Shown here: piece after piece, positions 36,231 to 59,046 of the stretch
Numbering within the stretch: position 1 is the stretch's first letter
Layout: every line of letters starts with the position of its first letter
Virus record (IMG/VR): IMGVR_UViG_3300049846_002130
Span: 62,001 to 126,000 of that record
Strand: one strand, 5' to 3'
DNA length: 64,000 nt
Source of the DNA: a virus
Program-made: the position numbers and the translations under genes
Notes under the pieces: model-generated
What the model saw: the letters and a program-made list of their open reading frames with translations, nothing else
What the model was told of the DNA's origin: nothing
The model's database searches: none

Positions 36231-37264
36231 TAAAGCCTCGTTGTTAATCCGTGTGGTTGAGCCTCTATAGCTCCATTAGCTGTAATTTTAATCCATTTTG
36301 TATTTTTATATATTTTTCTAGAGTCTTTAATATTCAAATAGGTGCAGGCTGATCTTAATCCGCCCTCAAACTTTTCAACTATTGATCTTACAGTTGTTCC
36401 ATCCCACATCGTTTCTGGATGTGAAACTCCTTCTGGACATGAGTTAATTTTTGAGTATTGGTCTTGTTGAAACTCAGCAGATGCCTGACCCCTATAAGAT
36501 TTGTAAAGCTTCCCGTCTCTTGGCATCCAGCCAGCAGCCTCTCTTGCCTTAGAAAAAACACTACCAAGCATAGCCCCGTCCGCGCCCAAGGCAAGGTACT
36601 TGACAACATCACCTGGATAACGAATACCACCATCAGCTATTAAGATAATATCCGAGGCAGACGCACTATCTAGAAAGCTTCTAATTTGAAATACAGCATA
36701 GGCATTGGGAACACCAACCCCAGTCATAAGTCTAGTTGTACACCCCGCCCCAGGACCAACTCCTACACGCAGATGTGTTGCACCTGCATTGACACAAGAC
36801 CTTGCTTGCTCGGCAGTACAAATAGAACCTGACATTATGTTCTTGAAGCCAAAGCGCTTCCATTTCTCAATAGCTTTTAATGCTTGGGTTGTAGTTCCGT
36901 TAGCAACATCAATTGCTATCCCAAACTTTTCTAGATCAATATTGGTAACCTTATGAAGGGGTAACGAGAACTTACCATCTAGTCCGGTGGCAAAGAAGAC
37001 TGGCTCTGATGCTGTGCCAATCTCATTAGCTAGTTTTACTGTCTTAATAATTTCTTCTCTAGGTATAAACCTACTAACAACAGGGTTGTGTCCGTACTTT
37101 ATAAGCACAGCTGTCATTGAAGAGCCTGTTACTGTATCCATAGGAGCCGACCACAAGAAATTATGGGTTCTAACATCTTGTCTGCTGTTGACATTACTAG
37201 GAACTGGAATCAAAGTAATATCGTCAACTGTAAATGCTGGTCCACTTGTATATGTTGAAATCAT
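36230..37264 (-). CDS. IMP dehydrogenase/GMP reductase family enzyme
   Basis: ATG at 37264 (ATGA overlap, AGAGG ribosome-binding site) is preferred to an upstream start at 37321. The TIM-barrel active-site loop 'GPGAGCTTR' is the family signature, with the catalytic Cys, followed by 'GVGVPN'. 'ADGGIRYPGDVVKYLALGADGAMLGS' is the phosphate-binding region, and 'YRGQAS' stands where the mobile flap begins. No CBS domains, as in GMP reductases. It interconverts guanine and inosine nucleotides in the phage-infected cell. Which direction cannot be told. Confidence 0.85.
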   Translation of the reverse strand: MISTYTSGPAFTVDDITLIPVPSNVNSRQDVRTHNFLWSAPMDTVTGSSMTAVLIKYGHNPVVSRFIPREEIIKTVKLANEIGTASEPVFFATGLDGKFSLPLHKVTNIDLEKFGIAIDVANGTTTQALKAIEKWKRFGFKNIMSGSICTAEQARSCVNAGATHLRVGVGPGAGCTTRLMTGVGVPNAYAVFQIRSFLDSASASDIILIADGGIRYPGDVVKYLALGADGAMLGSVFSKAREAAGWMPRDGKLYKSYRGQASAEFQQDQYSKINSCPEGVSHPETMWDGTTVRSIVEKFEGGLRSACTYLNIKDSRKIYKNTKWIKITANGAIEAQPHGLTTRL

Positions 37265-37563
37265 CTGTAAACCTCTGTCGCTCTTTTCTTTAAAATCTTT
37301 AAGCCATTGTCCATATAGCATTCGTAGACATAGCCAATTTTAATATGGTCGATCTCATGTCCACTCAAGCCAAGTATTAGTTGTGGGAAGTCCATCAATA
37401 TTTCTGATGCATCTTCTAGGTTTAAATATGGACCAGCAGACAAAATTGAAGCTCCATTCGGAGCTTCAATTTCTAACTTAATTATAAAAAAGGTGTCTAA
37501 AGAATTTGTTTCTTGTTCTCGTCGTAGCAAACATTTCTCCACGAACAATTGGCACATCTCCAA
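37261..37563 (-). CDS. Hypothetical protein (up to 100 aa)
   Basis: Soluble, mixed alpha/beta, with 'FFIIKLEIEAPNGASILSAGPY'. The first ATG is at 37563, which overlaps the Cas4-like gene by 67 bases; no better start codon is present downstream. Unknown family. Confidence 0.45.
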   Translation of the reverse strand: MEMCQLFVEKCLLRREQETNSLDTFFIIKLEIEAPNGASILSAGPYLNLEDASEILMDFPQLILGLSGHEIDHIKIGYVYECYMDNGLKILKKRATEVYR

Positions 37564-39005: not shown

Positions 39006-40107
39006 TTTCCACCTCAAAATCTAATTTGTTAGCTGGTAGCAGCTGACCACAGTATACAAAGTTTGACCTATTAAAGTCAGTATTACCTTCTTTGTCTTGA
39101 TAAATAACAGCATAGCCATTAATTGAATTGCCATTAATTATTTCTCTTGGCTGCCATGCGTAAGACATATAGTCTGCCATACAACCTTGTTCGATTAGTA
39201 AAAGAGAGTAGGCTATATGTTTACTAACTTTATGAGTATGGCCGCATACGATGGAATCAAAACTTCCTCTAGGAAGTCTTTCTAGAAACTTCTTTGCCCA
39301 GACATCTACTGTGAATCCGGGTTTGGAGCTTCCACGGTTATGAGGATGAACAAAGAGTGTTTTGCCTATTTTAATCCACCAAGACTCATGTTCTTGATAG
39401 TGAACATTTTTAAAGTTTAGTTTTTCGACTAGTTGGCCTTGTCTATTAAGACGCTCACCATTTGCGATTCTAGCAATAAGATCTGTTTCAAAGACAGTGA
39501 GAGCAGCTTGATTTATAGGCGCTTTCTTTAATAAGGAAGAGGTTCTGACATCGTGGTTACCACTAATCAGTATAACCTTAGGAAAGGTTTTTGAACAGTG
39601 CTCTATAAAATCAAATGCAGCCATATATTCTTCTATCGCTGCAATATCTTTATCCTTTTCAAATCTTGATGCTGCATAGCCATCTAAGATATCTCCATTT
39701 AAAACAATGATATCTGCATCTGCATGCTCCTTTAAGGCATGTCTTAGATGATCTTCTCTTGCTAAGGGAAAGTGGATATCAGATAAAGAAAGTATTTTTC
39801 TGCTAGAGGAGTTAACTAAGCCAACATCTGAGAATGAACTTTTATCTCCATGACGTTCTCTAGCTTTTTTTAGCTTGTCCCATGGACTAGCTGAGTTGTT
39901 GGTTGGTAGCTTTTGTTCTTTTCGTTTGTCGATACGTCTTAGTTTTCTTTCAATAGCTTCTGGGCTTCGAAGACTAATATTTGGTTTAGGAGTTGTATTA
40001 AGCTTTTTTTGAAAATAGCTAGCAACTTCTAAATAGCTTAGCCCTTCAGCTATTAGCTCTAATAAGAGCTGCTCTTCTGTATCTGACCACTTATTGGGAT
40101 TCGTCAT
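38998..40107 (-). CDS. Metallophosphoesterase with N-terminal SANT/Myb-like domain
   Basis: 369 aa. Residues about 5-65 ('WSDTEEQLLLELIAEGLSYL ... RSPEAIERKLRRID') look like a Myb/SANT helix-turn-helix. The calcineurin-type phosphoesterase follows: 'LSLSDIHFP', 'NGDILDG', 'SGNHDV' and 'VCGHTHKV' give motifs I-IV with metal ligands. Close to SbcD/Mre11-type nucleases, but the DNA-binding N-domain is unusual. It may process DNA ends or a nucleotide. ATGA-like overlap with dnaE C-half. Confidence 0.75.
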   Translation of the reverse strand: MTNPNKWSDTEEQLLLELIAEGLSYLEVASYFQKKLNTTPKPNISLRSPEAIERKLRRIDKRKEQKLPTNNSASPWDKLKKARERHGDKSSFSDVGLVNSSSRKILSLSDIHFPLAREDHLRHALKEHADADIIVLNGDILDGYAASRFEKDKDIAAIEEYMAAFDFIEHCSKTFPKVILISGNHDVRTSSLLKKAPINQAALTVFETDLIARIANGERLNRQGQLVEKLNFKNVHYQEHESWWIKIGKTLFVHPHNRGSSKPGFTVDVWAKKFLERLPRGSFDSIVCGHTHKVSKHIAYSLLLIEQGCMADYMSYAWQPREIINGNSINGYAVIYQDKEGNTDFNRSNFVYCGQLLPANKLDFEVEND

Positions 40108-42538
40108 TAAAATCTCCGTATAGGGAGTATACCTTAAATACTTTAACTTGTTTTGCTATTGGATTGTCATCTTCATCATAGACTTCCTCTGCAGTAGCTA
40201 GGACTCTTGCACTAACAACTTTATATTTATAGTTATCAGCAGTTTTATTGTTGTTGGTTATTGGAAGCTCTGTATTGTCGGTACCATCTGTAATATTTAA
40301 ATAATGCCTAAAGGATCCATCTTTATTCTTATATGTTTTTGTTTTGTCAACAACTCCACAAACTTCATAAGTACCCTTTTCACTAATTTCTTCTAAAGGT
40401 GTGGTATCGGGATACATCAGTCTTGCTGGGTTGTTAATAAAGCATCCGATTATAGCTCCCTGATCAAGCATTTCTTGAAAGCTAATAGTTAGCTTTTTGC
40501 TTCTTATTAGTTCGGGTAAGGTAGGAAGCTCAGGAACAACTAGTGGTTTTTTCTCTCTAATGCCTTTGTAGGTTTCTAGAAAAGATTGTTCTTCATCTGT
40601 AAGATCTCTAGTTTTTGAAAGTTTTTTAAGTCTTTCTAGTTCTAGTTTGATTTCTATTATACTTTTATTTTCTTTTTCTCGTTGTTCATTTTCAACAAGA
40701 CGCTCTTCAATGATCTTTTGGGTTTCTAGATAAAGTTGCAAACTATCGATTGAATCGAGTATTTGTTGTCTTTTATAACCCATTGAATCAAATGTACCAG
40801 CTATAGTTAAACATTCAAGTATCTTTTTGTTTACCTTGGTTTTTGAGATAAACTCCAAAATATCTTTGAACTTATCTTTTCTTTTATTTAATATTTTTGT
40901 AGCTGCTGTAAAGCCTAGACCCTTAATAGCAGTCAGTCCAAAGTAAATACCATTTCCAGCAATCTCAAAGTCAATGCCTGATCTATTGATGTCTGGTGGC
41001 AAGATTCCGACGTTCATTGCTTCAGCTTCTAAAATTATTTTAGAAACCTTGGCACTCCATTTCTTTGCATCACTTGTAGTTTTGCTGCGGACAGACATAA
41101 GGGCAGCAAAGAACTCTATTAAGTAATAGGTCTTTAACCATGCACACTGGTAAGTAATTAGTGCATAAGAGATCGCATGCGACTTATTAAATGCATACTC
41201 AGCATAGCCAAGGATAATATCGTCCCAATAGTGGATAGCATATGCTTCTGTAATCCCAGCTTTTATAAAGCCTTGTATAAATTGGTCTCTGTATGGCTTA
41301 AGGTATTTGACATTTTTCTTTCCCATAGCCCTGCGCACATCGTCAGCTTCTTTTAAACTAAAGCCAGCAATGTTAGACATGATTTGCATCATCTGTTCTT
41401 GGTAACAAAGAACATAATGTGTGTTTTCTAATACGGTAGCTATTTGATCTGGCAATCCAGAAGGTCGACCCTTATATTTGTTTTCTTGATATTGCTCTAC
41501 GAAGCCAGCTTCAAGTGGACCTGGACGGATTAATGCACTCAGGTCTGCAAGCTCTGATAGGTTTTTTGGCTGTAGCTTTTGAACCGATTGTTTCATCAGT
41601 TCACTTGTTTCCATTTGAAAGATTCCAGCTAGTTTGCCACTATTAATTAGTTCATAAACTTTAGGGTCATCTTCTGGCAAAGAGTCTGGGTCTATAGCTA
41701 TACCATGACGCTGTTTAACTAATTTACATGTCTCTTTAATTATAGATAGGTTTTCTATTTTTAAAAAGTCATACTTAATCAAACCCAAGCTAGCTATCTC
41801 ATTCATATCAAACTGAGTGATCCAGCGATCTGTCTCAACTTTTGTATCTGGATCTTTCATCTTTCGAAACCATAATGGAACAACATTACTTACTGGGTTT
41901 TCGCTGATAACGATGCCAGATGCGTGAGAACTATATGACTTAATCATATTCTCTAACTTTTGAGCTACATTATACCAAGGTCTGTACTTGCCTTCCTTTA
42001 ATTCTGGGTGCGCTATATAACCTTTTTTAGAACTTCCATTAATTGTTTCCTCAAGGGTTGCCTCTTTGCCGAAGAGTGTCTTGGGAATCTTTTCAAGGAT
42101 TTCTGATTGAATCTTCATATGCTCTTTAAATTCTCTAGACTCTCTATCTTTGGGTGCGGTGGCCATAAAATATGAGCGTACAGTTGATTTTGGTTTAAAC
42201 TTTTGAAGAGCAATAATGTTAGCTATGTTTTCTCTGCCCCAGTAATCTATAAGCCAGTCAACTATACGCTGGTAATTAAGTGGGTCAAAGTCTACGTCAA
42301 TATCTGGAGCTGCTCCATCAATAGTATCTGCCCTATTTTTTTCAAAACAAAATTCATTTGTTTTGCCAGTAATATATAGTAATATAGAGTTATGAGGATT
42401 TGGTACAGAACTTGGCTTGAGAGCTAAGATTAGTTTAATATCATCTTCAGATATTAGTTCTTCTTCAAATTCAAGGAAGTCTGGATCTACTTCTGCAAGC
42501 CTTGAATCTATATAAAGCTTTTTTAGATTTTCTATCAT
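40091..42538 (-). CDS. dnaE: DNA polymerase III alpha, C-terminal half (split DnaE)
   Basis: 815 aa. It starts close to the polymerase catalytic motif PDIDVDF (residues 78-84), which carries two of the three active-site Asp, and continues with typical DnaE segments: 'GIVISENPVSNVVPLWF', 'QTD/TQFDMNEIASLGLIKYDFL', 'LIRPGPLEAG', 'YQEQMMQIMSNIAGFS' and 'ADDVRRAMGKK'. A helix-hairpin-helix-like stretch and an OB-fold ('CGVVDKTKTYKNKDGSFRHY') follow. The first ~70 residues include a second, degenerate copy of the palm lead-in ('HNSILLYITGKT'). The PHP/N-terminal part is separate, at 43446-44726. AAGGA upstream. Confidence 0.88.
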   Translation of the reverse strand: MIENLKKLYIDSRLAEVDPDFLEFEEELISEDDIKLILALKPSSVPNPHNSILLYITGKTNEFCFEKNRADTIDGAAPDIDVDFDPLNYQRIVDWLIDYWGRENIANIIALQKFKPKSTVRSYFMATAPKDRESREFKEHMKIQSEILEKIPKTLFGKEATLEETINGSSKKGYIAHPELKEGKYRPWYNVAQKLENMIKSYSSHASGIVISENPVSNVVPLWFRKMKDPDTKVETDRWITQFDMNEIASLGLIKYDFLKIENLSIIKETCKLVKQRHGIAIDPDSLPEDDPKVYELINSGKLAGIFQMETSELMKQSVQKLQPKNLSELADLSALIRPGPLEAGFVEQYQENKYKGRPSGLPDQIATVLENTHYVLCYQEQMMQIMSNIAGFSLKEADDVRRAMGKKNVKYLKPYRDQFIQGFIKAGITEAYAIHYWDDIILGYAEYAFNKSHAISYALITYQCAWLKTYYLIEFFAALMSVRSKTTSDAKKWSAKVSKIILEAEAMNVGILPPDINRSGIDFEIAGNGIYFGLTAIKGLGFTAATKILNKRKDKFKDILEFISKTKVNKKILECLTIAGTFDSMGYKRQQILDSIDSLQLYLETQKIIEERLVENEQREKENKSIIEIKLELERLKKLSKTRDLTDEEQSFLETYKGIREKKPLVVPELPTLPELIRSKKLTISFQEMLDQGAIIGCFINNPARLMYPDTTPLEEISEKGTYEVCGVVDKTKTYKNKDGSFRHYLNITDGTDNTELPITNNNKTADNYKYKVVSARVLATAEEVYDEDDNPIAKQVKVFKVYSLYGDFNDESQ

Positions 42539-42558
42539 ATTGTTCCTTGGAGTAAATA

Positions 42559-42966
42559 ATGGCCATTAGTTACAAGAAGTCTAGCAAGAATGTTCCTCGG
42601 GGACAAAGAGTTGCTCATGTTACAAATATTGGTGCTAGTGACTCAGTAGACATTGTTGAGATTTTAGGGTTTCCAGCTAGGGTCGTAAAAATAGTTACGC
42701 CTGATTCTGGAGATATTTTAGAAATAAAGATTAACAATCGCTATACTTTAGCAGATGTTTATAACATGCCAGCTCATGGAGAACATGGTAGTGTAGATCC
42801 CAGGTCAGCAGTTAGAGTTGTGTCTGAGGGGGCGCAGCATCCAACACATACGCTTACAGGCTCTACTGTGTATTACTCAGAGGATGGATTAGAGATTGCT
42901 TGGCTAGAGCTATCAGATATGACTCCCGCTACAGCGACAGATGTTATTGAGTTAATGGCCTGGTAA
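42559..42966 (+). CDS. Hypothetical beta-rich protein inserted in dnaE locus (135 aa)
   Basis: Lies on the opposite strand to its surroundings. GGAG upstream, only 20 bases from the divergent dnaE C-half start. Composition is beta-rich and acidic (VVKIVTPDSGDILEIKIN ... STVYYSEDGLEIAWLELSD), similar in style to virion or decoration proteins. No family recognised. Five bases from the next + gene, so the two form a small operon. Confidence 0.55.
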   Translation: MAISYKKSSKNVPRGQRVAHVTNIGASDSVDIVEILGFPARVVKIVTPDSGDILEIKINNRYTLADVYNMPAHGEHGSVDPRSAVRVVSEGAQHPTHTLTGSTVYYSEDGLEIAWLELSDMTPATATDVIELMAW

Positions 42967-42970
42967 TGCT

Positions 42971-43534
42971 ATGAACACTGGGCTTAGATGGTTTTCAAAA
43001 GCACTTTTTTCATATAAAGGTTGTGTTAATATTTGGAAGCCTGGTCTATTCTTTTATATAGTAATTTCTTTAGCTATATTACTTTTGGAGCGGAATACTG
43101 TTTACATTGGTGATGTAATCCGAAACAGACAGATTGATCACATACAAACTGTTGCTGTTCTGGATACTGTTTTAGAAGTACCCACAAGAGAGGCAATCGA
43201 GTGGACCTCTGAGCGAGGTTGCTACTTTAAATACGTTGATGATCCTAATATAGCTGAGATCTTTATTCGGCTAGAGGATGAAATTAACTGTGGTGGACTT
43301 TACTCAGCTGGATGCGCTTCTGTTGGTAAAGCAATTAAGGAAATTAGAGTTACAATGCCAGAAGAAATTATTCTTGCTCATGAATTACTTCATGAGCATA
43401 ATCTGACTCATCCTCTAAACCCGCCTAATAAACATATATTAAGTCCTACTTTTGAACATCTAAGCTACAATGATCGTGGAGTTCGGCAGGCGTGTGCTCG
43501 GACTCGAGCCTATCCAATTCCTGTTGCGCAATAG
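42971..43534 (+). CDS. Membrane-anchored HExxH metalloprotease-like protein
   Basis: 187 aa. One transmembrane helix at about 25-39 ([15 protein letters not shown]), then a soluble domain with [11 protein letters not shown] at 137-147: the HExxHxxxxxH zinc motif of metzincins (Asn where Gly is usual). Two Cys pairs earlier may form disulfides, suggesting an outside-facing domain. Could act on the host envelope at lysis or entry. Its 3' end overlaps 89 bases of the dnaE N-half tail-to-tail. The 135-aa partner precedes it. Confidence 0.65.
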
Positions 43535-44726
43535 CTTTTGTTGCTTGATCAAAAATTAACGGTAGTGCAGCTCGACCAGGATTAAGCATTCGTTCAAACA
43601 GTAGGTTATATTTAATAGGATCTACTTTTGTAATACCTAAGGCATAGGCAACTAGAGAACCTCCAGCACTGCCACGACCAGGACCGATTGCTATGTCTAG
43701 CTCACGGGCCTTATTAACGTACTGAGCAACAATTAAAAAGTAATCGCTAAAGCCTAGTTTCTTAATAACACCAAGTTCATAAAATAATCTTTCAGTATAA
43801 ACAAATGGCATGGTTGTAAATCTTTTTTGAAGACCACTAATTGCTTCTGCTTCAAGCACTTGCCATGAATGTATACCTGGTGGGCATTCTTTATATTTGG
43901 TGAACCGATTCTTTCTATCAGAGAAATAATCGTTGGTTACCATGTTGGCAATATGTGTAGTATTAGTGAGCGCTTCTAAGGGTACGCTTGCTTGCTTAGC
44001 TAAGTCTTGCATCTCTTGTGGCGAACCAAGAAATACTTCTATGTCTCCAAATGAGAAGCCATCACCAGAACCTTCAGTTGCCATTTTAAGTGTAGTCTCG
44101 TGAAATTGTTTATCATGCTTATGTGTGTAGTGGGCATCAGCTGTCATAATAATTGGCAAGCTATTTCTATTTGCTAGCTCAATAAGAATGCTGTTGACAA
44201 CTTGCTGGTCTCCAGCATGAGCTTGTAGCTCTACGAAGAATCTATCTTTATAGATATCAGCATGCTCTAGCAATTGTTTTTCTGCTTGTTTATAGTCACC
44301 TCTTAAAATTAATTGAGAGAATAGCGATCCTAAACATGCAGTAGTGGCAGCAATACCTTCTGAATAGTCAGCCATAATCTGTTTTGCAATTCTTGGCTTA
44401 TAGTAAAGATTCTCTGTGTATGCTCGAGAGCTTAGTGTCCATAAGTTATGAAGACCTTTATTATTTAGAGCCAGCATGACCATATGATAGTAAGCTCGTT
44501 CTCGCTCATCGGGTTCGCGCACACCATTCGGTAGAACTGATATATATGCTTCTAAACCAAGGATAGGTTTAATACCAACCTTATTACAGTTCTGCCAGAA
44601 TTGGTAATGGCCGACACAATTACCGTGATCGGTTAAAGCGCAGCTGGACATTCCCTTATTTTTAATATGTTGAGGAGTGCTGTCTAGACGATTTACCCCA
44701 TCTAGTGTTGATGCTTCAAACTTCAA
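43446..44726 (-). CDS. dnaE: DNA polymerase III alpha, N-terminal half (split DnaE)
   Basis: 426 aa from TTG at 44726. It holds the PHP domain after its first motif ('TLDGVNRL', '[15 protein letters not shown]', '[10 protein letters not shown]', '[16 protein letters not shown]') and the start of the polymerase palm ('[24 protein letters not shown]', then '[14 protein letters not shown]'). The PDIDxDF motif that should come next is in the other half. The last 37 residues are unlike DnaE and are coded opposite the metalloprotease gene. The missing HLHVH motif lies in another frame just upstream (44723-44788). Both halves are needed for a full active site. Confidence 0.85.
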
Positions 44727-48944: not shown

Positions 48945-49449
48945 CGGACTCCTTAGGTTCCTTGTCTGGATTTAGGGTAAGAAATTTAACTCTATTCTCC
49001 TTAACAGCTTCTTTGATTGCTTTTTGAACTTTACTAAGTCTAGATTTACTAGTCTTTACTTCTATAAAAAGTATCTCGTTTACAGTTGGCTCAGTATCGC
49101 GGCTATTATGAACACCTGAAAATACGATGTAGTCTATAGGATCTCCCAGATGTCTAAAGTCACGGGGATTCAGATTACCAATTGCAAACGGTATAAAGGT
49201 CTCAGCTATATTGCCTCTAGTTACTGCTTTACTTTTTACTATTGCTTCTGCCCTAGCAGTGGTTAGGGATTGCTGATGGTTCAAATTTTGATCTAGTAGT
49301 TCTTTTTCTAAGGTTTCTATTTTTAACTTAGTGACTTTTCTTTCTTCTGCCAGCTGAGTTTTAGTAAACTGATTAAGGCTTATAGTAAAGATTAGCATGA
49401 CAGATAAAAGAATACATGCAACAGTTAATAAAATTAAGGATGTGTCCAT
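48928..49449 (-). CDS. Membrane-anchored PD-(D/E)XK (Holliday-junction-resolvase-like) nuclease
   Basis: 173 aa. N-terminal transmembrane helix (residues 5-25), a coiled-coil linker, then a nuclease domain with D106 (GDPIDYIVF) and E130-V-K132 (FIEVKTSKSRLS). This is the 'endonuclease related to archaeal Hjc' family, often fused to a TM helix. Start ATG shares the palindrome CCATGG with the divergent gene at 49448. May act on DNA near the membrane. Confidence 0.7.
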   Translation of the reverse strand: MDTSLILLTVACILLSVMLIFTISLNQFTKTQLAEERKVTKLKIETLEKELLDQNLNHQQSLTTARAEAIVKSKAVTRGNIAETFIPFAIGNLNPRDFRHLGDPIDYIVFSGVHNSRDTEPTVNEILFIEVKTSKSRLSKVQKAIKEAVKENRVKFLTLNPDKEPKESDEQIS

Positions 49450-49843
49450 GGAACCTCATAATGTGCAAGTACTTTGCTCTGGGTATTTTAATCTATTACA
49501 TGCTGGCCATGTTGAGCTGTTAGCTTTTGCTTCTAAGTATGGGAAAGTAACAGTAGCTATTAATGATGATGAGCATTGTCAAAGAAAATATGGAACAAAA
49601 GCTATGTTGGCTTCCCATCGGTTGTATTGCTTAAATGCTTGTAAGTATGTAGAAAGTACTTGTGTCTTTGGCGAAGACACGCCCTCTGAATTAATACTAA
49701 GACTAAAGCCCAAGTATTATATACGAGGCTATGACTATGCTAATAAAGCACTTCCAGAAGAAGCTGCTCTAGAGCTTGTTAAAGCACAAACCATTATATT
49801 CAAGAGTAAGCAAATTAAGATTCATACTTCTGACTTTCTTTGA
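49448..49843 (+). CDS. Cytidylyltransferase-like, HldE/RfaE domain II-like
   Basis: About 131 aa from ATG 49448 (AAGGATG upstream). 'CSGYFNLLHAGHVELL' contains the HxGH motif of nucleotidyltransferases, 'AINDDEH' binds phosphate, and 'RGYDYANKALPEEAALELVK' matches the HldE C-domain 'KGgDY'. HldE's C-domain makes ADP-heptose from heptose-1-phosphate and ATP. Lone + strand gene in a - strand region. Sugar is inferred. Confidence 0.75.
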   Translation: MEPHNVQVLCSGYFNLLHAGHVELLAFASKYGKVTVAINDDEHCQRKYGTKAMLASHRLYCLNACKYVESTCVFGEDTPSELILRLKPKYYIRGYDYANKALPEEAALELVKAQTIIFKSKQIKIHTSDFL

Positions 49844-52154: not shown

Positions 52155-52389
52155 CGTTTTTCTCCATAAAAATTCTATATATATAGCCTAATCTAAAGGC
52201 TGTTGTGAACAGAACGCGAAAAGTCGAGTCTGAAAGATGCTGAGATAGAGCTTCTAAAGCTTTGTTAATAAATAGCTGTTGGTCTTCTTTCTCTGGATTA
52301 GCCATTAGTTTATTAAACAATAAGTCTACTAATTCTTTATTCGTGTATTTAGAAGTACCTGCTGAGGTTTTAACAGACCACATCACCAA
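52096..52389 (-). CDS. Hypothetical helical protein (97 aa)
   Basis: 'YTNKELVDLLFNKLMANPEK' gives a helix-turn-helix-like start. Ser-rich acidic end. Seven-base overlap with the Whirly-like gene. Unknown. Confidence 0.45.
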   Translation of the reverse strand: MVMWSVKTSAGTSKYTNKELVDLLFNKLMANPEKEDQQLFINKALEALSQHLSDSTFRVLFTTAFRLGYIYRIFMEKNDVTFESNSAQDTEFSSVSS

Positions 52390-52829
52390 CCTAACATCTT
52401 GGGTAAGGCTGTTCGTATAAGTATACCTAGGGCAGAGAACTCTCCCCCTGAGAGCGAAACTGTTATCATACGAGAGGTTCTATCAGCATCTGTTTGTCTG
52501 ATAGACATTAACCAAGTCCCAGCATACCGCTCATCTGTACTTTCCTTAAAAGAGATGGATTTAGTTGTTCCTTGGTACTCGTGAACAATCTTTGTTGTTT
52601 CTGGGTTTTCTAGTAAATGACAAAGATCTGCAGTACCTAATGCAATTGAAATTTTACCATCTTTCCAGTCGTATAGTTTATTTTCTCCATCTGTTCCAAC
52701 TACTTTTGCTGCTTCAACAAGAATTGCTCCTGCTTTATCCATCCAATCATTGTCTTTAGCTCTGGGAGCAAGAAATGAGAATTTGGCTGCAGCCGAGCCT
52801 TTAAAAATATCAAATGAGCCTGGCTTCAT
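52383..52829 (-). CDS. Whirly/PC4-like ssDNA-binding protein
   Basis: 148 aa. Three landmarks follow the order of the plant Whirly fold: 'KGSAAAKFSFL' (10-20, cf. KGKAALS), 'KLYDWKDGKISIALGTADLCHLL' (51-73, cf. RKYDW...FALS..E.G.L), and 'EFSALGILIRTALPKMLGW' (130-148, cf. EFAV...ALPHIMGW). Whirly proteins bind single-stranded DNA and protect organelle genomes. Here it would coat ssDNA for recombination or replication. No ordinary OB-fold SSB is in the window. Call rests on motif pattern. Confidence 0.65.
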   Translation of the reverse strand: MKPGSFDIFKGSAAAKFSFLAPRAKDNDWMDKAGAILVEAAKVVGTDGENKLYDWKDGKISIALGTADLCHLLENPETTKIVHEYQGTTKSISFKESTDERYAGTWLMSIRQTDADRTSRMITVSLSGGEFSALGILIRTALPKMLGW

Positions 52830-53091
52830 TATTGGTCCCCTTGTTTGAATACCATGTTTGCATTAAAAGACCTTGTGCAATTAATGCGTTCTCTGGTGTT
52901 TCACCATATGTTTTTCTATGCTGATGCAAATAGTCTACTAGCTCTTGATAGCTGATAGATTCTGCCCCAGTCTTACTTAATCCAATATTAATGAGAACGT
53001 CGGCAAATATACCGATGATCTCCTTTGTTGTCAAAGTTGTACTATTAAGCAGATTAATAATTTGATCTGCTATATCTTCTTCTAGTTTCAT
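52810..53091 (-). CDS. Hypothetical protein (93 aa)
   Basis: Helical: 'EEDIADQIINLLNSTTLTTK' and 'YQELVDYLHQHRKTYGETPE'. Lies directly after the terminator at 53104-53134, so it begins the recombination unit. Unknown. Confidence 0.45.
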   Translation of the reverse strand: MKLEEDIADQIINLLNSTTLTTKEIIGIFADVLINIGLSKTGAESISYQELVDYLHQHRKTYGETPENALIAQGLLMQTWYSNKGTNNEARLI

Positions 53092-53103: not shown

Positions 53104-53134
53104 AAAGTGGTCGGAGATTAACTCCGACCACTTT
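53104..53134 (-). terminator. Rho-independent terminator
   Basis: 13-bp stem AAAGTGGTCGGAG/CTCCGACCACTTT with AATTTTTAAAAAA on the - strand. It overlaps the last codons of the 57-aa gene and ends the ubiquitin-like cassette. Confidence 0.85.
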
Positions 53135-53291
53135 CTACCTGTATGTTCCAAGCTTTTAATCCTCTATAAACTTCATACATTTTTATATCAGGATTTTGTT
53201 TACATCTTTCGATGAAGCCAGGAACATTGGCTTTGATTTGAGATAAGGCTTCTTTACATTGCTTAGGGGAATATACTTCCGTCCCAAACAT
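53118..53291 (-). CDS. Hypothetical small protein of the Ubl cassette (57 aa)
   Basis: ATG at 53291 taken (TAATG coupling to the Ubl gene); the frame is open to 53324. 'YSPKQCKEALSQIKANVPGF' is helical, 'MYEVYRGLKAW' follows. Last gene of the cassette; may be a partner of the Ubl. Unknown. Confidence 0.5.
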   Translation of the reverse strand: MFGTEVYSPKQCKEALSQIKANVPGFIERCKQNPDIKMYEVYRGLKAWNIQVESGRS

Positions 53292-53512
53292 TAGAAAGCG
53301 CCTTTGGATCCCTGGACTGCCCAAATCTCTTCTACGCCATCTACACAGGTAGTAGAGAACTCACTAGGAGCTACCTCAGTTTCGCCACCAAGAAGAATCT
53401 TATAGGTGCTATCGATCTGTAGGTGAGACACTACATCTTGAACGGTAGTGCCCTGGGTAACTTGGACTGTCTTGGTGTTCCCCGCGGGAACAAATAGTAC
53501 ATGAATTGTCAT
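53291..53512 (-). CDS. Ubiquitin-like beta-grasp protein (73 aa)
   Basis: Strand-helix-strand pattern of the beta-grasp fold: 'HVLFVPAGNTKTVQVTQGTTVQDVVSHLQ' (3-31) then 'KILLGGETEV' and 'IWAVQGSKGAF'. Size and position next to an E1-like gene match PRTRC protein C/MoaD/ThiS-type modifiers. The C-terminus is GSKGAF, without a Gly-Gly end, so any conjugation would need processing (a JAB peptidase is nearby) or a different chemistry. ATGA-coupled to E1. Confidence 0.65.
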   Translation of the reverse strand: MTIHVLFVPAGNTKTVQVTQGTTVQDVVSHLQIDSTYKILLGGETEVAPSEFSTTCVDGVEEIWAVQGSKGAF

Positions 53513-54222
53513 TCTATCTCCTTTAAGTTGTATTGCTTTACAAATAGTTTACTATCTTTCATAACTGTAATTGTTCCATATGGATATTTAAAGGCACTAG
53601 TTGTTGCTTTAGCAACCAGTAGCGTACAAATATATTGTACCATATAGGCAGATATCGTAGTTACAAGAGTGGAACATAGACGCTGATTACAAGGGCCTTC
53701 TGGAATGAGGCTATCATCCATAAAGCTATCTGTCCACTGTCTATATAGTTCAGAGTTTAAAGGATTTATTACATGTATTTCTCCATGTTCAAATCCAAGG
53801 CGTGCTTCAATAGCTAACAGTATATTTGTGTTATACAAGATACCTTGTGATATATCTTTTCGACTCTTCATAGAGTCGGTAGCTATTATTAAAAAGCCCT
53901 CCACATGCGCAGCATCAGCTGCGCTAGTATAAAACCTATTATATGTTTTTACTTCTATGTCTGGATTAAATTCACGAAGCAACTCTGACAATGCTTCTAC
54001 TTTAGATTTTCCTATATGTTTGGGAAAGAACTGCTGATTTGCTAGATTATAGTCTTCAACAACATCTGCATCATAAAGAACAAACTTTTTAAATCCCATA
54101 CGGGCCGCGATCATAGCAACATTAGAGCCAACACCCCCACATCCAACAATAACTATTGGATGTGTTATCATATTTGGATGTAGCCATCCAGAATGTCTTA
54201 GAAATGATGGCTTATTCTCCAT
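53509..54222 (-). CDS. E1/ThiF-like adenylating enzyme
   Basis: 237 aa, the size of PRTRC ThiF. Rossmann motif GCGGVGS (27-33), acidic 'DADVVEDYNLANQQFF' (51-66) with the Asn/Gln that bind ATP, 'GKSKVEALSE' Lys72/74, and 'ATDS' Asp116, all standard in E1/MoeB/ThiF enzymes. C178 and C183 could serve as transfer or zinc Cys. It should adenylate the Ubl C-terminus. Its ATG sits inside the end of the JAB frameshift extension. Confidence 0.8.
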   Translation of the reverse strand: MENKPSFLRHSGWLHPNMITHPIVIVGCGGVGSNVAMIAARMGFKKFVLYDADVVEDYNLANQQFFPKHIGKSKVEALSELLREFNPDIEVKTYNRFYTSAADAAHVEGFLIIATDSMKSRKDISQGILYNTNILLAIEARLGFEHGEIHVINPLNSELYRQWTDSFMDDSLIPEGPCNQRLCSTLVTTISAYMVQYICTLLVAKATTSAFKYPYGTITVMKDSKLFVKQYNLKEIE

Positions 54223-54739
54223 ACTCGATTCCTTTAAAGAGCATTAATAGTTCTTTTAATACTTTTACTTTTTCTGTAGAGCTAGATTCTTTAAATACGG
54301 AGTTATCAACAAGATATAATGTTGTAGCTAAAAGTAAAACTAATACATTTGCATCAACAGCAGTTGTAGAAAACATCTTAGTTATTTCTGATAAGCTTAC
54401 TGGCTCAAATATATCTTTTATTGGTACTTTCTTTTCTTTAGCCGAAGTAACTATACGATGAAGCCTTATTGTAATACCTAGCCATCGTAATGCTTTATTT
54501 CTATCAAGTCCCCAACCTTTCAATAACAAAAGGAATCTATCTAAATGAGTCTGGATAGATGAAGGAGTCATTGCTTCCACTAAGGATTCACCTGCTTCGA
54601 GTAGGTAGCTAAGTTTATATGGCTCGAAATCTGGTGACTCAATAATTTTAGTAATGAATTGATTTTTATTTATAAAGTCTATCTGTTGTTTATCAAATAG
54701 ATTTATAAATTTATAGTTACTTCGGCCTAGTGTTTTCCC
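54212..54739 (-). CDS. -1 frameshift extension of the JAB protein (about 175 codons)
   Basis: Frame open from the slippery site to TAA at 54212. Between 54739 and 54567 it has no ATG, GTG or TTG, while the residues look coding: 'NYKFINLFDKQQIDFINK', then 'SYLLEAGESLVEAM'. The first start is GTG 54580, giving at most 122 aa. Helical, no recognised family. Reading it as the second part of a JAB-X fusion made by ribosomal slippage is simpler than an internal start. Confidence 0.7.
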   Translation of the reverse strand, partial: GKTLGRSNYKFINLFDKQQIDFINKNQFITKIIESPDFEPYKLSYLLEAGESLVEAMTPSSIQTHLDRFLLLLKGWGLDRNKALRWLGITIRLHRIVTSAKEKKVPIKDIFEPVSLSEITKMFSTTAVDANVLVLLLATTLYLVDNSVFKESSSTEKVKVLKELLMLFKGIEYGE

Positions 54740-55467
54740 ATATAGTGAAACACAAAATCAGTTTGATCAGTAGTCGTTGTAGTGTCTTTCGAGGTCGTCG
54801 TACCAGCATACACGCTCTGAGCTAAAGGGGCGGGTGGACTTCCTCCAGAAGTTACTGTAACTACAGAACTCTTTTTACTAACCAAAGAGCTGATAGCACT
54901 ATCTATTTTCTTATAGTTATAGCTGTTTTCAACAGCTATTGGAGGCTGCTCGATTATAATCCCATCTAGACTTGGATCAAAGACTCTGCAATAAATATCA
55001 CGTTTCTGATTAAAGATTAGCATTGCTTTTGGTGTAGTAGCATCTTTAATTAGAGCTGTCCAGTTTTCTTGATCAGTACCAGTAGGCTTTGCTTCCATAT
55101 TAACATGGGAATGGCACCAAGCTCCTGCCTCAGACATCAAAGTCTTAAGCTCCGTAGCAGTAAGATTACGGTCTTTCTTAAGTTGTTGCCACATCTCAGC
55201 TAAGTCTGCTGGCTCACTATCAACTGTTATTGTGGTAACAGTTTGCTTTGGTATAAAGATATCACTAATTCGATAAAATATCTTACCGTTTTGACGCTCT
55301 GAATAATCTGGTATTATTCTAGAGTACCACTGACCCTCAAACGTCTTAAGTTCATCTACAAAGTATTCGCTTAACTCTAAACATTCTTGATCAAAAACCA
55401 CATAATATTTATAAGCAGTAGTAAGAGTTGGAGTCCTTTCTGCTATTAGTTTCTTAGATAGTGTCAT
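54727..55467 (-). CDS. JAB/JAMM metallopeptidase (PRTRC A-like)
   Basis: 246 aa. JAMM motif H119-S-H121-x7-T129-x2-D132 ('CHSHVNMEAKPTGTDQENW'; Thr replaces Ser) binds the zinc of deubiquitinase-like peptidases. The N-terminal 110 residues hold the conserved Glu and core strands. The C-terminal 50 residues are Ser/Thr-rich and disordered. In Ubl systems it trims the modifier's tail or removes it from targets. Ends on a -1 slippery heptamer. Confidence 0.8.
   Translation of the reverse strand: MTLSKKLIAERTPTLTTAYKYYVVFDQECLELSEYFVDELKTFEGQWYSRIIPDYSERQNGKIFYRISDIFIPKQTVTTITVDSEPADLAEMWQQLKKDRNLTATELKTLMSEAGAWCHSHVNMEAKPTGTDQENWTALIKDATTPKAMLIFNQKRDIYCRVFDPSLDGIIIEQPPIAVENSYNYKKIDSAISSLVSKKSSVVTVTSGGSPPAPLAQSVYAGTTTSKDTTTTTDQTDFVFHYMGKH
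54733..54739 (-). promoter_or_regulatory. -1 ribosomal frameshift heptamer G GGA AAA
   Basis: In the JAB frame the codons are ATG GGA AAA CAC TAG, so the heptamer is in the correct X XXY YYZ phase, two codons before the stop. The -1 frame then reads GGG AAA ACA CTA and stays open 175 codons. Lambda gpG-GT uses a near-identical GGGAAAG site. No strong downstream hairpin is obvious. Confidence 0.75.
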
Positions 55468-55474
55468 CTATTTT

Positions 55475-57175
55475 TTAACCTTCTTCGTAAAGTGGAAACC
55501 ATGTATACTCTGCTCCCCACTGGTCCTTACTGTTAACCGATGTAACCCATGAATCAACTGCGTAAAACAACTGACCCAAATCTCCCTCAGAGATTGCCCT
55601 TTTAATATTTGCTTCTGCTTCTCCGAAACAAATTTTAGTTGGTTTATTATAAGCTGATTTTATGCTTTTGACATCTTTTCTATTCATAGCTGTTGCAGCT
55701 GAGTGTGGATGAGCCTTGATATTTACAATATCTCCTATAGCTGGAGAGATACCTATAATAGAACTTAAATCTAGAGGATATATTTTTCCAATTAGATCTC
55801 CTCTATAAGAATAACCAATACTTATTCTGTAGGGTCCTGCTACAACTAAAGTTGTATTAGTTCCTTTTTCTGCTTTATCAACATATAGAATTGAAGGCTT
55901 TATAGTCTGCAGCTCAATATTTAAACTTTGAATTCTATCTTTTTCTTCTATAAGCTCTTTTAAAAAGATACTGTATTTATCTTCTGTATTTAAATCTAAC
56001 TCTGTATAAGAATTATACATGGTCTCTATAGTAATAGCTTGTAAGCTATAATTAGATAAAAGTCCAAGGCCCAAAAATTTACAGAATGTTTTTGTATTTT
56101 TAAGTGTATTAAGATATATTTCTGCAGCTAAGTTACTATTGGTTTTCGCTATAGTTAAACTTTCTTTAATCTTTTGATGGGTTTCTAGATAACCTTTAAG
56201 CTTTAATTCAAGATCTTTAATAAGATTTTGATTACTTTCTACATTTTTTGTAACTGAAAGATCCTCAGAAAGAAGGGTATTTAAAAGATTAGTTTTAGTT
56301 TGAAATTCTTTTGCTCTTTCTTTTAATAAGATATATTCTTGTGATGGTCTTGGAATAAAGAGAGGCTCAGCTTTAAAGTCTTTGTCTACTTGTAGCTCAG
56401 TATCAATCTTATTTGCATCTTCTGGTGTAAGTAGCTCTGCTAAAACATTCCAGTTTTTAGTTAAGCTATTAAGATTAGTTAGGTCAATAGGCTTATTGAA
56501 AGCTGCGGCCCCACTATTAAGATACTTAATCATAAACTCGTGAATAGTTTTACCATAGGTGGCATATAGCTTTGCACTACATTTTGGTAAAACCATTACA
56601 TTGTGATTAACTATAGTATTATTAGCTTTTATAAATGGTAGGTTTAAGAAGAATACTTTTGGTGTCCTTGGATTCAAGGGCAAGTCTTCAACAACCACAT
56701 CCTTTAGAGAATTGGTCACGATATCGAAAACTGTAATACTATCTTTTGGTAATTGAGTTTTTAATATATTTAATAATGAATTATTAGAAAAGATAAAGGT
56801 TGAGTAGTCTCCAACATGACCATTAACTTTAGAACACCAACTTAATGCTTCTGTATACTTTATTGAATGCCAATCTTTGTCTAGTAGACTAGTTAAGCTT
56901 TCTAACTGTTTATAACTTAAATTAGGTAAGCTTGGTATTTTAAAATTAGGTAGTGTTGGATGTATGAATAGCAATATCTTAGGAATAAGATTGCTATAGT
57001 ATAATTCTCTTCCTCCTGGAAGTGTTTGGGGCTCAAAGGTGGAGGAAAGTGAAATTTTTGATTCTACGTAAACGTTATTTTCTTTTCTTCTATACATAAC
57101 TAACTGTTTAGTAGCAGACTGTGCTTCTAAAAAGTGGTTGCCTATTAATGCGTCAGTTGATAAAACAATACTCAT
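55475..57175 (-). CDS. Coiled-coil protein with C-terminal E2-like domain (566 aa)
   Basis: N-terminal ~250 residues mixed alpha/beta, then a coiled-coil region (about 280-430). The C-terminal 120 residues (447-566) read like a ubiquitin-conjugating domain: 'GPYRISIGYS' strands, 'HPH' at 489-491 in the place of E2's HPN, a Cys at 516 in 'KICFGEAEANI', then a long helix with 'LFYAVDSWVTSVNSKDQWG'. Homologues of this pattern occur in PRTRC B and other bacterial E2s. The gene sits immediately upstream of JAB. The N-terminal part has no recognised fold. Confidence 0.6.
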   Translation of the reverse strand: MSIVLSTDALIGNHFLEAQSATKQLVMYRRKENNVYVESKISLSSTFEPQTLPGGRELYYSNLIPKILLFIHPTLPNFKIPSLPNLSYKQLESLTSLLDKDWHSIKYTEALSWCSKVNGHVGDYSTFIFSNNSLLNILKTQLPKDSITVFDIVTNSLKDVVVEDLPLNPRTPKVFFLNLPFIKANNTIVNHNVMVLPKCSAKLYATYGKTIHEFMIKYLNSGAAAFNKPIDLTNLNSLTKNWNVLAELLTPEDANKIDTELQVDKDFKAEPLFIPRPSQEYILLKERAKEFQTKTNLLNTLLSEDLSVTKNVESNQNLIKDLELKLKGYLETHQKIKESLTIAKTNSNLAAEIYLNTLKNTKTFCKFLGLGLLSNYSLQAITIETMYNSYTELDLNTEDKYSIFLKELIEEKDRIQSLNIELQTIKPSILYVDKAEKGTNTTLVVAGPYRISIGYSYRGDLIGKIYPLDLSSIIGISPAIGDIVNIKAHPHSAATAMNRKDVKSIKSAYNKPTKICFGEAEANIKRAISEGDLGQLFYAVDSWVTSVNSKDQWGAEYTWFPLYEEG

Positions 57176-57178
57176 TTG

Positions 57179-57589
57179 TTACCCATTGTTAATAAAAGCT
57201 TTTGCTAAGTTTTCAATAAAATAATTAAGCACAAGGTTTCTTGATTTAGTATCATCAAGAATTTTAGGCCCTAAGAGAGAGATACCTAATTTAGTGGCTG
57301 AATTATTTTTTCTGTTATCCAGTCCAAAGTCTTCTAAGATCAGATCTACTTTTTTAGTATCAAGATAAATAAACTCTTTATTTAAGATTGTTTTAATTAT
57401 TCCTGCAGGCATGGGGAATAAGGTTGCTGCACCACGCGCAAAACAAGCACTTGACTGAAAATCAAAATATGGAGAAAGAATGTTTATTACTTCAGTATCC
57501 AACAAGCAGCCTTCTCTCATATAATAACCTAACAAAGCTTTCTGTAGGTTTGAGTAAACAAATGGGTTATTTAAATCCCATTTGTTCAT
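57179..57589 (-). CDS. Hypothetical protein of the cassette (136 aa)
   Basis: ATG at 57589 with GGAG six bases upstream; a longer frame begins at 57637. Mixed helical protein, 'ACFARGAATLFPMPAGIIKTIL' in the centre. Three bases before the E2-like gene, so co-transcribed. No family. Confidence 0.5.
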   Translation of the reverse strand: MNKWDLNNPFVYSNLQKALLGYYMREGCLLDTEVINILSPYFDFQSSACFARGAATLFPMPAGIIKTILNKEFIYLDTKKVDLILEDFGLDNRKNNSATKLGISLLGPKILDDTKSRNLVLNYFIENLAKAFINNG

Positions 57590-57809
57590 ATATATACTCC
57601 AACACATCTGCCCCATCAGGGGCATTGATAAGCTCATCTATATCTATAGATATACCTATCGAATAGCAGATAGGACAAATATTACTTATATCGTCTCTAG
57701 TTGCTTTATAGCCACATTCTAATTCTGAACATATAAAGTACTTAGAAGCCAATTCCTGGTTTTCTGCTAGGGGTGGCTTTAGATTTTCTACTAATGACAA
57801 ATTCTTCAT
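57567..57809 (-). CDS. Zinc-ribbon/rubredoxin-like protein (about 80 aa)
   Basis: 'CSELECGYKA' and 'NICPICYSI' give two CxxC-type knuckles. The C-terminus is acidic. Start uncertain: ATG 57809 overlaps the AAA+ gene by 67 bases, and a TTG at 57752 is also possible. Fits a small metal-binding adaptor of the cassette. Confidence 0.55.
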   Translation of the reverse strand: MKNLSLVENLKPPLAENQELASKYFICSELECGYKATRDDISNICPICYSIGISIDIDELINAPDGADVLEYIYEQMGFK

Positions 57810-59046
57810 CCTTAGCAATATGTTTCTGTACAAGAAGTAGTTTTAAGTTTTTTTCTATTGTTCTTATACTGTCGTGAGTTAGTAGATTACTAATATCTAA
57901 GTCATTAGTAATAGTGTCTGAAATAGATAATTCTTTAGAAATCTTTGGAATAAGTTTGTTTTTTATAAGTTCCTTAAGCTCTTCAGTAGAATAGTTTCTG
58001 AAATGAACTTCGGTTAATCGATCTCTAAACGGCTTAGATAGTTTAGTATTGTCATTACTTGTAAATATAAAGGTAATGTTAGAAACATCAATAGGTTGAT
58101 TTATATAAGCATCTACCCAATTGGTATTCTGGCTTGGATCTAATAAACTTAAAAAGCTATTTTGTACTTCCGTGGAGCTTTTATCTATCTCGTCACATAC
58201 AAGAATTGGGTTTAAGCATTTGGTATTAATTAGTTCTTGAACTATAATTCCTGGAGAACTATTTGTATACGTTCTTAGGAAGCCAGAAACATAATTTTTA
58301 TCAGTCTTATCTCCGAGACTAAACACTCTCATTGGAGTTTCTAGTAGCTTTGCTAAATCATATGCAAACGTAGTTTTACCTACACCAGGAGGCCCACTAA
58401 ATAATAATGGTGGAAGGCCAGGCTTATCTAAGAAATAAGAGTAGCGTATGGTTAAGTACAACATAAGCTGATCTTCTTTTGATAAAGGTAAGACTTCTAT
58501 AAGATTTTTTATCTCTCCAATAGCATATTTTAAAGGTAGAGTTGTTTTAGGGATTTGGTCTAGGTACTGAATATAATTATTTAGATTATTATATTCAGTA
58601 GATCCAGGAACGAGTTTAGATAAACTGGACTTTAAAGAAAGCAACTTATTTGTTTTTTCTAAAAGAAACATAAGTGCTTCTTGAGAAGATAGCTCAAGAT
58701 ATTTTGCTCTTTCCTCTAAAGATGTCAGTATTAGTTCTGCTTTGCTATCTAATTCTTCAGTTGAAAAGCAATTAAGTGCATTAGCTTCTAGGGGCTCTGC
58801 AGAAATTGGTTCATATATATTACTTGTATAGTCTCTACAGAATATTTTAGATGTTGGTACAAATCTAATATTAGAGTCTTCAGGAAAAGCAGAGCCTATA
58901 TAACCTATAGTAAGTAGTTTGTCTTTATATGTAATTAGAACTACTGCTTCATATGGTTCTTGCGAATAGGGCTCAATATTAATTAATTTAAAACTTTGTA
59001 AGTATATAGGAATATGTACTTGTAATGGGACTATATGTATTCTCAT
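57742..59046 (-). CDS. Lon-like AAA+ ATPase without protease domain
   Basis: 434 aa. Walker A GPPGVGKTT (218-226), 'VFSLGDKTDKNYVSGFLRTY' then 'PGIIVQEL', Walker B 'ILVCDEIDKSS' (281-291), 'LLDPSQN' and 'FTSNDNTKLSKPFRDRL' all follow the Lon ATPase order, in particular Lon's '...LGGVRDEAEIRGHRRTY'-like segment. The N-terminal ~80 residues may be a reduced Lon N-domain. The Ser-Lys protease domain is absent, so this is an unfoldase. Its operon place suggests it unfolds or extracts Ubl-tagged proteins; that is inference. Confidence 0.8.
   Translation of the reverse strand: MRIHIVPLQVHIPIYLQSFKLINIEPYSQEPYEAVVLITYKDKLLTIGYIGSAFPEDSNIRFVPTSKIFCRDYTSNIYEPISAEPLEANALNCFSTEELDSKAELILTSLEERAKYLELSSQEALMFLLEKTNKLLSLKSSLSKLVPGSTEYNNLNNYIQYLDQIPKTTLPLKYAIGEIKNLIEVLPLSKEDQLMLYLTIRYSYFLDKPGLPPLLFSGPPGVGKTTFAYDLAKLLETPMRVFSLGDKTDKNYVSGFLRTYTNSSPGIIVQELINTKCLNPILVCDEIDKSSTEVQNSFLSLLDPSQNTNWVDAYINQPIDVSNITFIFTSNDNTKLSKPFRDRLTEVHFRNYSTEELKELIKNKLIPKISKELSISDTITNDLDISNLLTHDSIRTIEKNLKLLLVQKHIAKDEEFVISRKSKATPSRKPGIGF

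Follow-up and report, generated by a model that had tools for sequence, protein, structure and literature searches.

A predicted ubiquitin-like conjugation operon among the replication genes of a tailed phage and its relatives

In the BilABCD systems of bacteria a ubiquitin-like protein (Ubl), an E2 enzyme, a JAB-type peptidase and an E1 enzyme are encoded together, and some of the proteins contain two Ubl domains. Prokaryotic Ubl operons, classified as types 6a-6e, are known from bacteria and plasmids (PMC1779556), and E1-E2 conjugation is used in defence by CBASS (PMC10097602) and, as cited in a further source, by Bil and Bub (PMC13373217). Lambda gpI and gpK constitute a known phage Ubl/JAMM pair (PMC12908700). 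Here we describe a set of four genes, encoding a Ubl, an E1, a JAMM peptidase and an E2-like protein, in a window of 64,000 nucleotides that spans bases 62001-126000 of the IMG/VR virus record IMGVR_UViG_3300049846_002130, which is 183.5 kb long. An initial annotation had proposed these four genes as one operon, and they do lie on the minus strand at the positions that it gave (Table 1). We propose, with a probability of about 0.8, that the operon encodes a complete cascade for Ubl conjugation and deconjugation, which the phage would use during infection. Because in all four proteins the catalytic residues do not vary across 10-15 distant relatives, and most of 134 related loci (groups of 54 and 80 that share some contigs) contain the set, the association is more than chance.

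The modifier of the predicted cascade is a protein of 73 amino acids (aa). Its AlphaFold2 model, built from a 12-sequence alignment, reached a pLDDT of 82 with the order beta-beta-alpha-beta-beta-beta, and nearly all the PDB matches listed by Foldseek were ubiquitin (best E 7.7e-4, probability 1.00). The closest full-domain sequence match of the Ubl profile was SAMP2 (7.5e-4), the one hit that scored above it being a short stretch of a designed repeat protein. The model thus assigns the protein to the ubiquitin-like beta-grasp fold that had been annotated. Near its end Gly71 (codon 53302-53300), invariant in 12 relatives, is followed by an Ala-Phe tail, and the C-terminus is conserved as K-G plus one or two residues. 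The E1 matches Pfam ThiF at 98 bits against a cut-off of 28, and a 12-sequence profile of the phage E1s matches UBA5 (1.8e-17) and also Uba1, ThiF and Cap2. Assignment to the E1-like (ThiF/MoeB/UBA) superfamily calls for a Rossmann fold, the motifs GxGxxGS and DxD...E..N..Q, a Lys, an Asp and a catalytic Cys; judged by its sequence the window protein belongs there, and its ATP-site residues, previously described as intact, are invariant in the aligned relatives, as is the candidate catalytic Cys178. The JAMM protein carries the metal site E44 ... H119-S-H121-x7-T129-x2-D132, in which E44, HSH and D132 are invariant over 13 sequences and the window protein has Thr in place of Ser. Its profile matches the proteasome deubiquitinase RPN11 (1.8e-6) and archaeal JAMM1, while the window protein as a single sequence stays under the cut-off of the Pfam JAB models. 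With its metal site complete, the protein is predicted to be a JAMM/MPN+ metallopeptidase, in agreement with the initial annotation.

The fourth protein had been thought to end in an E2-like domain centred on Cys516. In the window this putative E2 (UBC) domain follows a long N-terminal region and contains HPH...KIC516FG (active-site Cys codon 55630-55628), with a longer loop, and the predicted order of its elements is helix, four strands, Cys, two helices. Among relatives C-x-G is invariant, mostly after [H/N]-[P/T]-H; the closest ones keep Cys516 (CLGE...W...N..D.WG....FP), two of them with HPH too, and others display textbook E2 forms: HPHVDGNNGRPCLGS (locus L032), HPHVSGHNGEACFGN (L038) and HHPHISQDGTPCLGN (L050). 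In 650,000 residues a relaxed version of the motif picked out 14 genes, all of them E2 genes, and shuffled sequences gave no match. A 15-sequence profile produced 97 weak PDB matches, most of the listed ones being E2 enzymes, and among Pfam families only UQ_con drew matches from more than one member (best 0.007). The E2 (UBC) active-site motif H-P-[N/H]...C can be recognised in the protein, and motif and profile together support the view that its C-terminus is an E2 domain.

Several observations weigh against this interpretation and against the cascade of which the E2 would be part. Every E2 hit in the PDB is individually non-significant (E>=0.06), the AlphaFold model of the domain has low confidence (pLDDT 49.9), and Foldseek with this model returned nothing significant (best E 0.66). 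As the structure model is poor, the case for the E2 rests on sequence; of the original claim, motif conservation, element order and profile matches stand, but a confident fold was not obtained. A single Gly precedes the tail of the window Ubl, at a position where many Ubls have two, and in one of the two clades of relatives described below (clade II) the Ubls are without a C-terminal Gly.

An alternative explanation is that the Ubl and E1 function in sulfur-carrier chemistry, like ThiS/ThiF or Urm1/Uba4, to supply a cofactor or modify a tRNA base, with the JAMM enzyme simply maturing the Ubl. The best NCBIfam matches of the E1 are indeed ThiF models, though all score below their cut-offs, and SAMP2, the closest prokaryotic match of the Ubl, also has a sulfur role. 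We nevertheless regard this explanation as very unlikely, as nearly all complete loci encode an E2-type protein whose Cys is conserved, and no rhodanese, cysteine desulfurase, thiamine or molybdenum genes were recognised beside the set. The presence together of an E1, an E2, a JAMM enzyme and a Ubl with a near-terminal Gly argues for true conjugation, rather than sulfur transfer or plain cleavage of a precursor.

Scans of IMG/VR with the window E2 or E1 as single proteins identified no relative. The entry to the family was an alignment with MT835544, a gut phage contig whose JAMM is weakly similar, and an alignment scan from this relative yielded 32 IMG/VR loci and 20 contigs of metagenome-assembled genomes. 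All four genes were present (E<=1e-3) in 48 of 54 related loci, including loci that lay outside the profile training (L038-L040, L048 and L050). A scan with an E1 alignment confirmed at least 383 relatives; among the best 80 of these, the complete set of four lies within 7 kb in 62, and JAMM and E1 occur together in 78. The related loci are mostly viral contigs, and several incomplete ones are contig ends. The operon is shared with relatives, and the phage set is not unique to the window phage but widespread in phages. Two clades can be distinguished by their Ubl ends, which in clade I (the window type) are mostly K/R-G plus one or two residues and in clade II resemble KADNA; near clade I sets DNA polymerase III and primase families are shared. 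A Salmonella ThiF match was rejected as a phage relative because, although its record is filed with phages, the gene lies in a thiamine cluster of the host, and tblastn of plasmids with the E2 proteins of two relatives gave no match.

A more distant, divergent version of the set is carried, as judged from sequence comparison, by crAss-like phages (Kolpuevirus, Mahlunavirus, DAC17 and others) and by Flavobacterium phage FpV4. In these phages genes labelled 'metalloprotease', 'thiamine biosynthesis' or hypothetical encode the E2-like, JAMM and E1 proteins, close to the genes of a primase and a uracil-DNA glycosylase (loci L002, L003, L005 and L060-L065). DAC17 is a Bacteroides phage with B. thetaiotaomicron VPI-5486 as its host. 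Comparison of crAss-type with window-type profiles gave probabilities of 100% for the E1, 98% for the JAMM, 13% for the E2 and <1% for the Ubl; the crAss-type E2 and Ubl are supported by their motifs and positions and by a match, a weak one, that Foldseek gave to a 211-aa cr111_1 protein, which has the length of its upstream gene. The Ubl-like domain of these phages is N-terminal in the product of the upstream gene, where it ends in KKIKSGA or KQVKSGG and continues into a longer protein. A different arrangement is seen in L114 (7662-8336), where three nearly identical Ubls stand head to tail, and in loci with two such units: L012 (9364-9777), L109/L110 (L109:7681-8094), L144 (8883-9296), L139, L073/L074 and L075 (8272-8703). 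The units end in KGN, KGG or RGA. This layout resembles that of polyubiquitin and would need a peptidase, such as the adjoining JAMM enzyme.

The source record, to judge by its genes, is that of a real tailed phage: it encodes a large terminase (PF03237, 1.4e-10) as well as baseplate-wedge and endolysin families. The surroundings of the cassette contain RecA, DNA polymerase III alpha and primase-helicase genes, which bears out the annotated position of the set next to replication functions, and the whole record has one E1 and one Ubl of this type. The initial annotation had suggested that the set could modify host or virion proteins; this setting points to the replication stage over virion assembly. 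It also bears on the possibility that the locus is a maturation device like lambda gpK/gpI, in which the JAMM enzyme would cut the Ubl off another protein to time assembly, without conjugation. The lambda pair does combine a phage JAMM with a Ubl (PMC12908700), and the Ubl-like domains of the crAss-like phages and FpV4 are fused to longer proteins. Such a device, however, would leave the E1 and E2 without a role, the set is outside the tail module, and the window Ubl is a free protein; we consider this explanation highly improbable.

The locus differs from each of the closest described systems. PRTRC/type 6d is similar in having separate genes for a Ubl with C-terminal Gly, a JAB, an E1 and an E2-like protein, and in residing on mobile DNA with ties to replication or maintenance (PMC1779556). 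In type 6d E2s, however, an upstream His is missing and a downstream one is present instead, whereas in the phage E2s HPH precedes the Cys, and the phage Ubl has one or two residues after the Gly or is tandem. When the set was compared with PRTRC models, as the initial annotation had suggested, PRTRC_ThiF scored 37.2 bits against the 144.75 required and the other three proteins gave no match at E<=1, so that membership was rejected; ParB was not recognised among the ten cassette proteins scanned, no search of the whole record having been made. BilABCD is a host-encoded defence system, whereas the window set is phage-encoded within a replication block; no Bil-named match was found in PADLOC or NCBIfam, although the presence of Bil models there was not established. 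Lambda gpK (JAB plus NlpC) and gpI (Ubl) share with the set a phage JAMM-Ubl pair and a cut at the Ubl C-terminus, but they are without E1 or E2, sit in the tail module and have a structural role (PMC1779556, PMC12908700); membership was rejected, since the window JAMM lacks an NlpC match and lies among early and replication genes. CBASS Cap2/Cap3 and the 6A-6C E1-E2 fusions resemble the set in pairing E1/E2 chemistry with a JAB protease, in keeping with the Cap2 match of the E1 profile. In those systems one fusion protein contains both E1 and E2, and the substrate that is modified is a cGAS-like enzyme, whereas in the phage set all proteins are separate and a Ubl is present. The archaeal SAMP/UbaA/JAMM1 system, to which the closest solved full-domain match of the Ubl and one match of the JAMM profile belong, is a host system without an E2. 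The same four activities occur in eukaryotes as polyubiquitin, UBA5, RPN11 and UBC, and tandem Ubl precursors are found in the phage relatives; the phage set differs in having no recognised E3 and no proteasome, and in a tail of K-G-[N/G/A] in place of plain Gly-Gly.

The same biochemistry could instead serve defence or superinfection exclusion, tagging the virion parts of competing phages or blocking other elements, as Bil does. Retron-type reverse transcriptases, a class common in defence, adjoin clade II relatives of the set. Bil, CBASS and related E1-E2-JAB systems counter phages (PMC10097602 and the Bil papers cited in PMC13373217). In clade I, to which the window belongs, a reverse transcriptase neighbour was however found at 0/70 loci. 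Moreover, the set lies in a replication block and is kept with an AAA+ gene and a 148-aa gene across divergent phages, unlike variable defence cargo, and among the defence models of PADLOC only generic E1 and weak JAB models matched. A defensive role thus appears unlikely for the window set.

Clade II loci have features of their own. In some of them one protein combines the Ubl with a conserved ~130-aa domain (L009:5064-5738, L037:4945-5565), which is a separate gene elsewhere (20 loci). The retron-type reverse transcriptase (PADLOC RT_II-A, 2e-41) follows the E1 in 34 of 41 loci of this clade (L017:9729-11084, L043:9278-9556, L004, L007-L009, L018, L021, L033-L037, L043-L057). The gap of 200-500 nt before it is often flanked by inverted repeats like retron a1/a2 arms, with arms >=8 nt in 14 of 26 gaps as against 10 percent in shuffles. 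These loci possibly represent a retron with a Ubl-conjugation cassette as its partner. Rfam matches below threshold in Ubl-carrying viral contigs comprise a group I intron, a twister-P1 ribozyme and RAGATH-36 (L021:15320-15721, L037:314-382 and L009:13723-13907).

Within the window operon the JAMM enzyme is probably made in two forms, a -1 frameshift being predicted to join it to a helical domain in a 418-aa long form. The heptamer GGGAAAA, read G-GGA-AAA, is in phase just upstream of the JAMM stop; the -1 frame is open from 28 nt ahead of this stop, continues for ~173 codons without an ATG, GTG or TTG across ~147 nt after the stop, and ends where its own stop overlaps the E1 start. A hairpin with z of about -3 to -4 lies 3' of the heptamer, and in the close relatives L068-L075 the JAMM and a C-terminal extension share one open reading frame (ORF). 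Against the fusion, the hairpin is ~22 nt past the heptamer, beyond the usual distance, and the helical extension is not recognisably alike between phages, being too variable for confident alignment. The 122-aa ORF at 54212-54580 might therefore be an ordinary separate gene, with possible starts at GTG 54580 and ATG 54571; in L067 the extension is likewise in the -1 frame, following an A run, yet an ATG comes right after the JAMM stop. A separate gene would, however, leave ~50 open codons upstream of GTG 54580 unexplained, and does not account for the in-phase heptamer inside the frame overlap or for the single ORF of L068-L075. We hold it to be the less probable arrangement, if by no means a negligible one.

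The Lon-type AAA+ gene lies just outside the operon as first delimited (53118-57175). The NCBIfam Lon model TIGR00763 matches its product across only positions 279-524 of 795, and identity as a Lon protease, with AAA+ and Ser-Lys protease domains, was rejected because the ORF stops after the AAA+ part. An early reading that the gene is unlinked to the system, based on the lack of a match with distant relatives, was overturned by closer ones: seven of the ten closest relatives (L067-L071, L075 and L076) have it upstream of the set, while after the cassette the 148-aa gene is present in all ten and the 93-aa gene in five. The AAA+ and 148-aa genes were not found beside more distant relatives. 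The Lon-type ATPase and the JAMM extension are therefore traits of this phage's lineage, not of the wider family. The initial annotation had regarded the combination of the set with a Lon-type ATPase and a frameshift fusion as apparently new; the AAA+ linkage is conserved in close relatives and a frameshift at the JAMM gene is plausible, and the four-gene set itself is common to many phages. A frameshift fusion of the AAA+ and zinc-ribbon genes was rejected: the zinc-ribbon ORF has its own ATG (57809), so the overlap requires no frameshift, and in relatives the AAA+ protein likewise terminates at the IGF motif.

In the cascade that we propose, the Ubl would be made with a short tail, or elsewhere as head-to-tail repeats or an N-terminal fusion, and the layout of these sequences suggests that the conserved Gly is where the JAMM enzyme would trim it. 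The E1, with its invariant residues, would adenylate this Gly and load the Ubl on Cys178, from where it would move to Cys516 of the E2-like protein and then to lysines of targets. As no separate E3 was recognised, the long N-terminal region of the E2 may pick the targets, and the JAMM enzyme would also take the tag off them. Use of the frameshift site would yield part of the JAMM as the long form and would carry the ribosomes that shift frame to the start of the E1, possibly setting the ratio of writing to erasing. In this lineage the Lon-type AAA+ protein, given its conserved linkage, may unfold or extract tagged proteins. Since the set is kept among replication genes in different phages, its targets are likely to have roles in genome replication or host takeover. 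That tailed phages run a miniature ubiquitin pathway, with polyubiquitin-type precursors and, in this lineage, a Lon-type AAA+ unfoldase that takes over tagged proteins and a programmed JAMM frameshift that balances tagging and untagging in genome replication, is a more speculative and rather doubtful extension.

Bacterial viruses probably tag proteins much as ubiquitin does in our own cells. If so, phages would tag proteins for their own ends, with the full set kept in many phage lineages and a divergent version in crAss-like gut phages, which grow on Bacteroides. Ubl conjugation in bacteria is otherwise known mainly from host metabolism and anti-phage defence, and the phage sets offer very compact E1-E2-peptidase-Ubl systems and polyubiquitin-like precursors in viruses of prokaryotes. 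A literature search turned up no earlier report of phages with a complete E1-E2-JAMM-Ubl set. Novelty is not thereby proven, as preprints and most subscription papers were outside the reach of the search.

The minus-strand order of transcription is AAA+, zinc-ribbon, 136-aa, E2-like, JAMM with its -1 extension, E1, Ubl and 57-aa genes, and from the E2 onwards the genes overlap or are separated by a few bases, an operon-like arrangement. The 136-aa protein had no family match in a library scan, and the 57-aa protein, whose start is most likely ATG 53291, had no relative among the related loci examined.

Table 1. Features of the cassette and its flanks, in window coordinates
Feature	Position	Strand	Basis
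93-aa and 148-aa genes after the cassette	52383..53091	-	block conserved in closest relatives
57-aa protein directly after the Ubl	53118..53291	-	ORF list; no relative found
Ubl, 73-aa predicted beta-grasp modifier	53291..53512	-	AlphaFold2, Foldseek and alignment
E1/ThiF-type activating enzyme, 237 aa (predicted)	53509..54222	-	Pfam ThiF 5.2e-28
JAMM -1 frame extension, ~173 aa, helical (predicted)	54212..54738	-	open frame; one-ORF relatives L068-L075
JAMM/JAB metallopeptidase, 246 aa (short form, predicted)	54727..55467	-	invariant metal site; RPN11 profile match
Candidate -1 frameshift heptamer G-GGA-AAA at JAMM gene end	54733..54739	-	phase, frame overlap
E2-like protein, 566 aa	55475..57175	-	putative UBC domain ~residues 430-566 (to 55475)
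136-aa protein between zinc ribbon and E2	57179..57589	-	ORF list; no family match
Zinc-ribbon-like protein, 80 aa, between AAA+ and E2	57567..57809	-	four cysteines; weak zf_CopZ match 0.0026
Lon-type AAA+ ATPase without protease domain	57742..59046	-	TIGR00763 Lon 1e-41, AAA part alone

Elsewhere in the window the DNA polymerase III alpha gene is split (40091-44726) into a PHP part (43446-44726) and a polymerase part (40091-42538), separated by two plus-strand ORFs in what looks like an insertion. A lone plus-strand gene at 49397-49843, within the minus-strand block, has the look of a cytidylyltransferase-type nucleotidyltransferase (FNLLHAGHVELL motif), and the phage also encodes an IMP dehydrogenase/GMP reductase at 36230-37321 (Pfam IMPDH, 7e-56).

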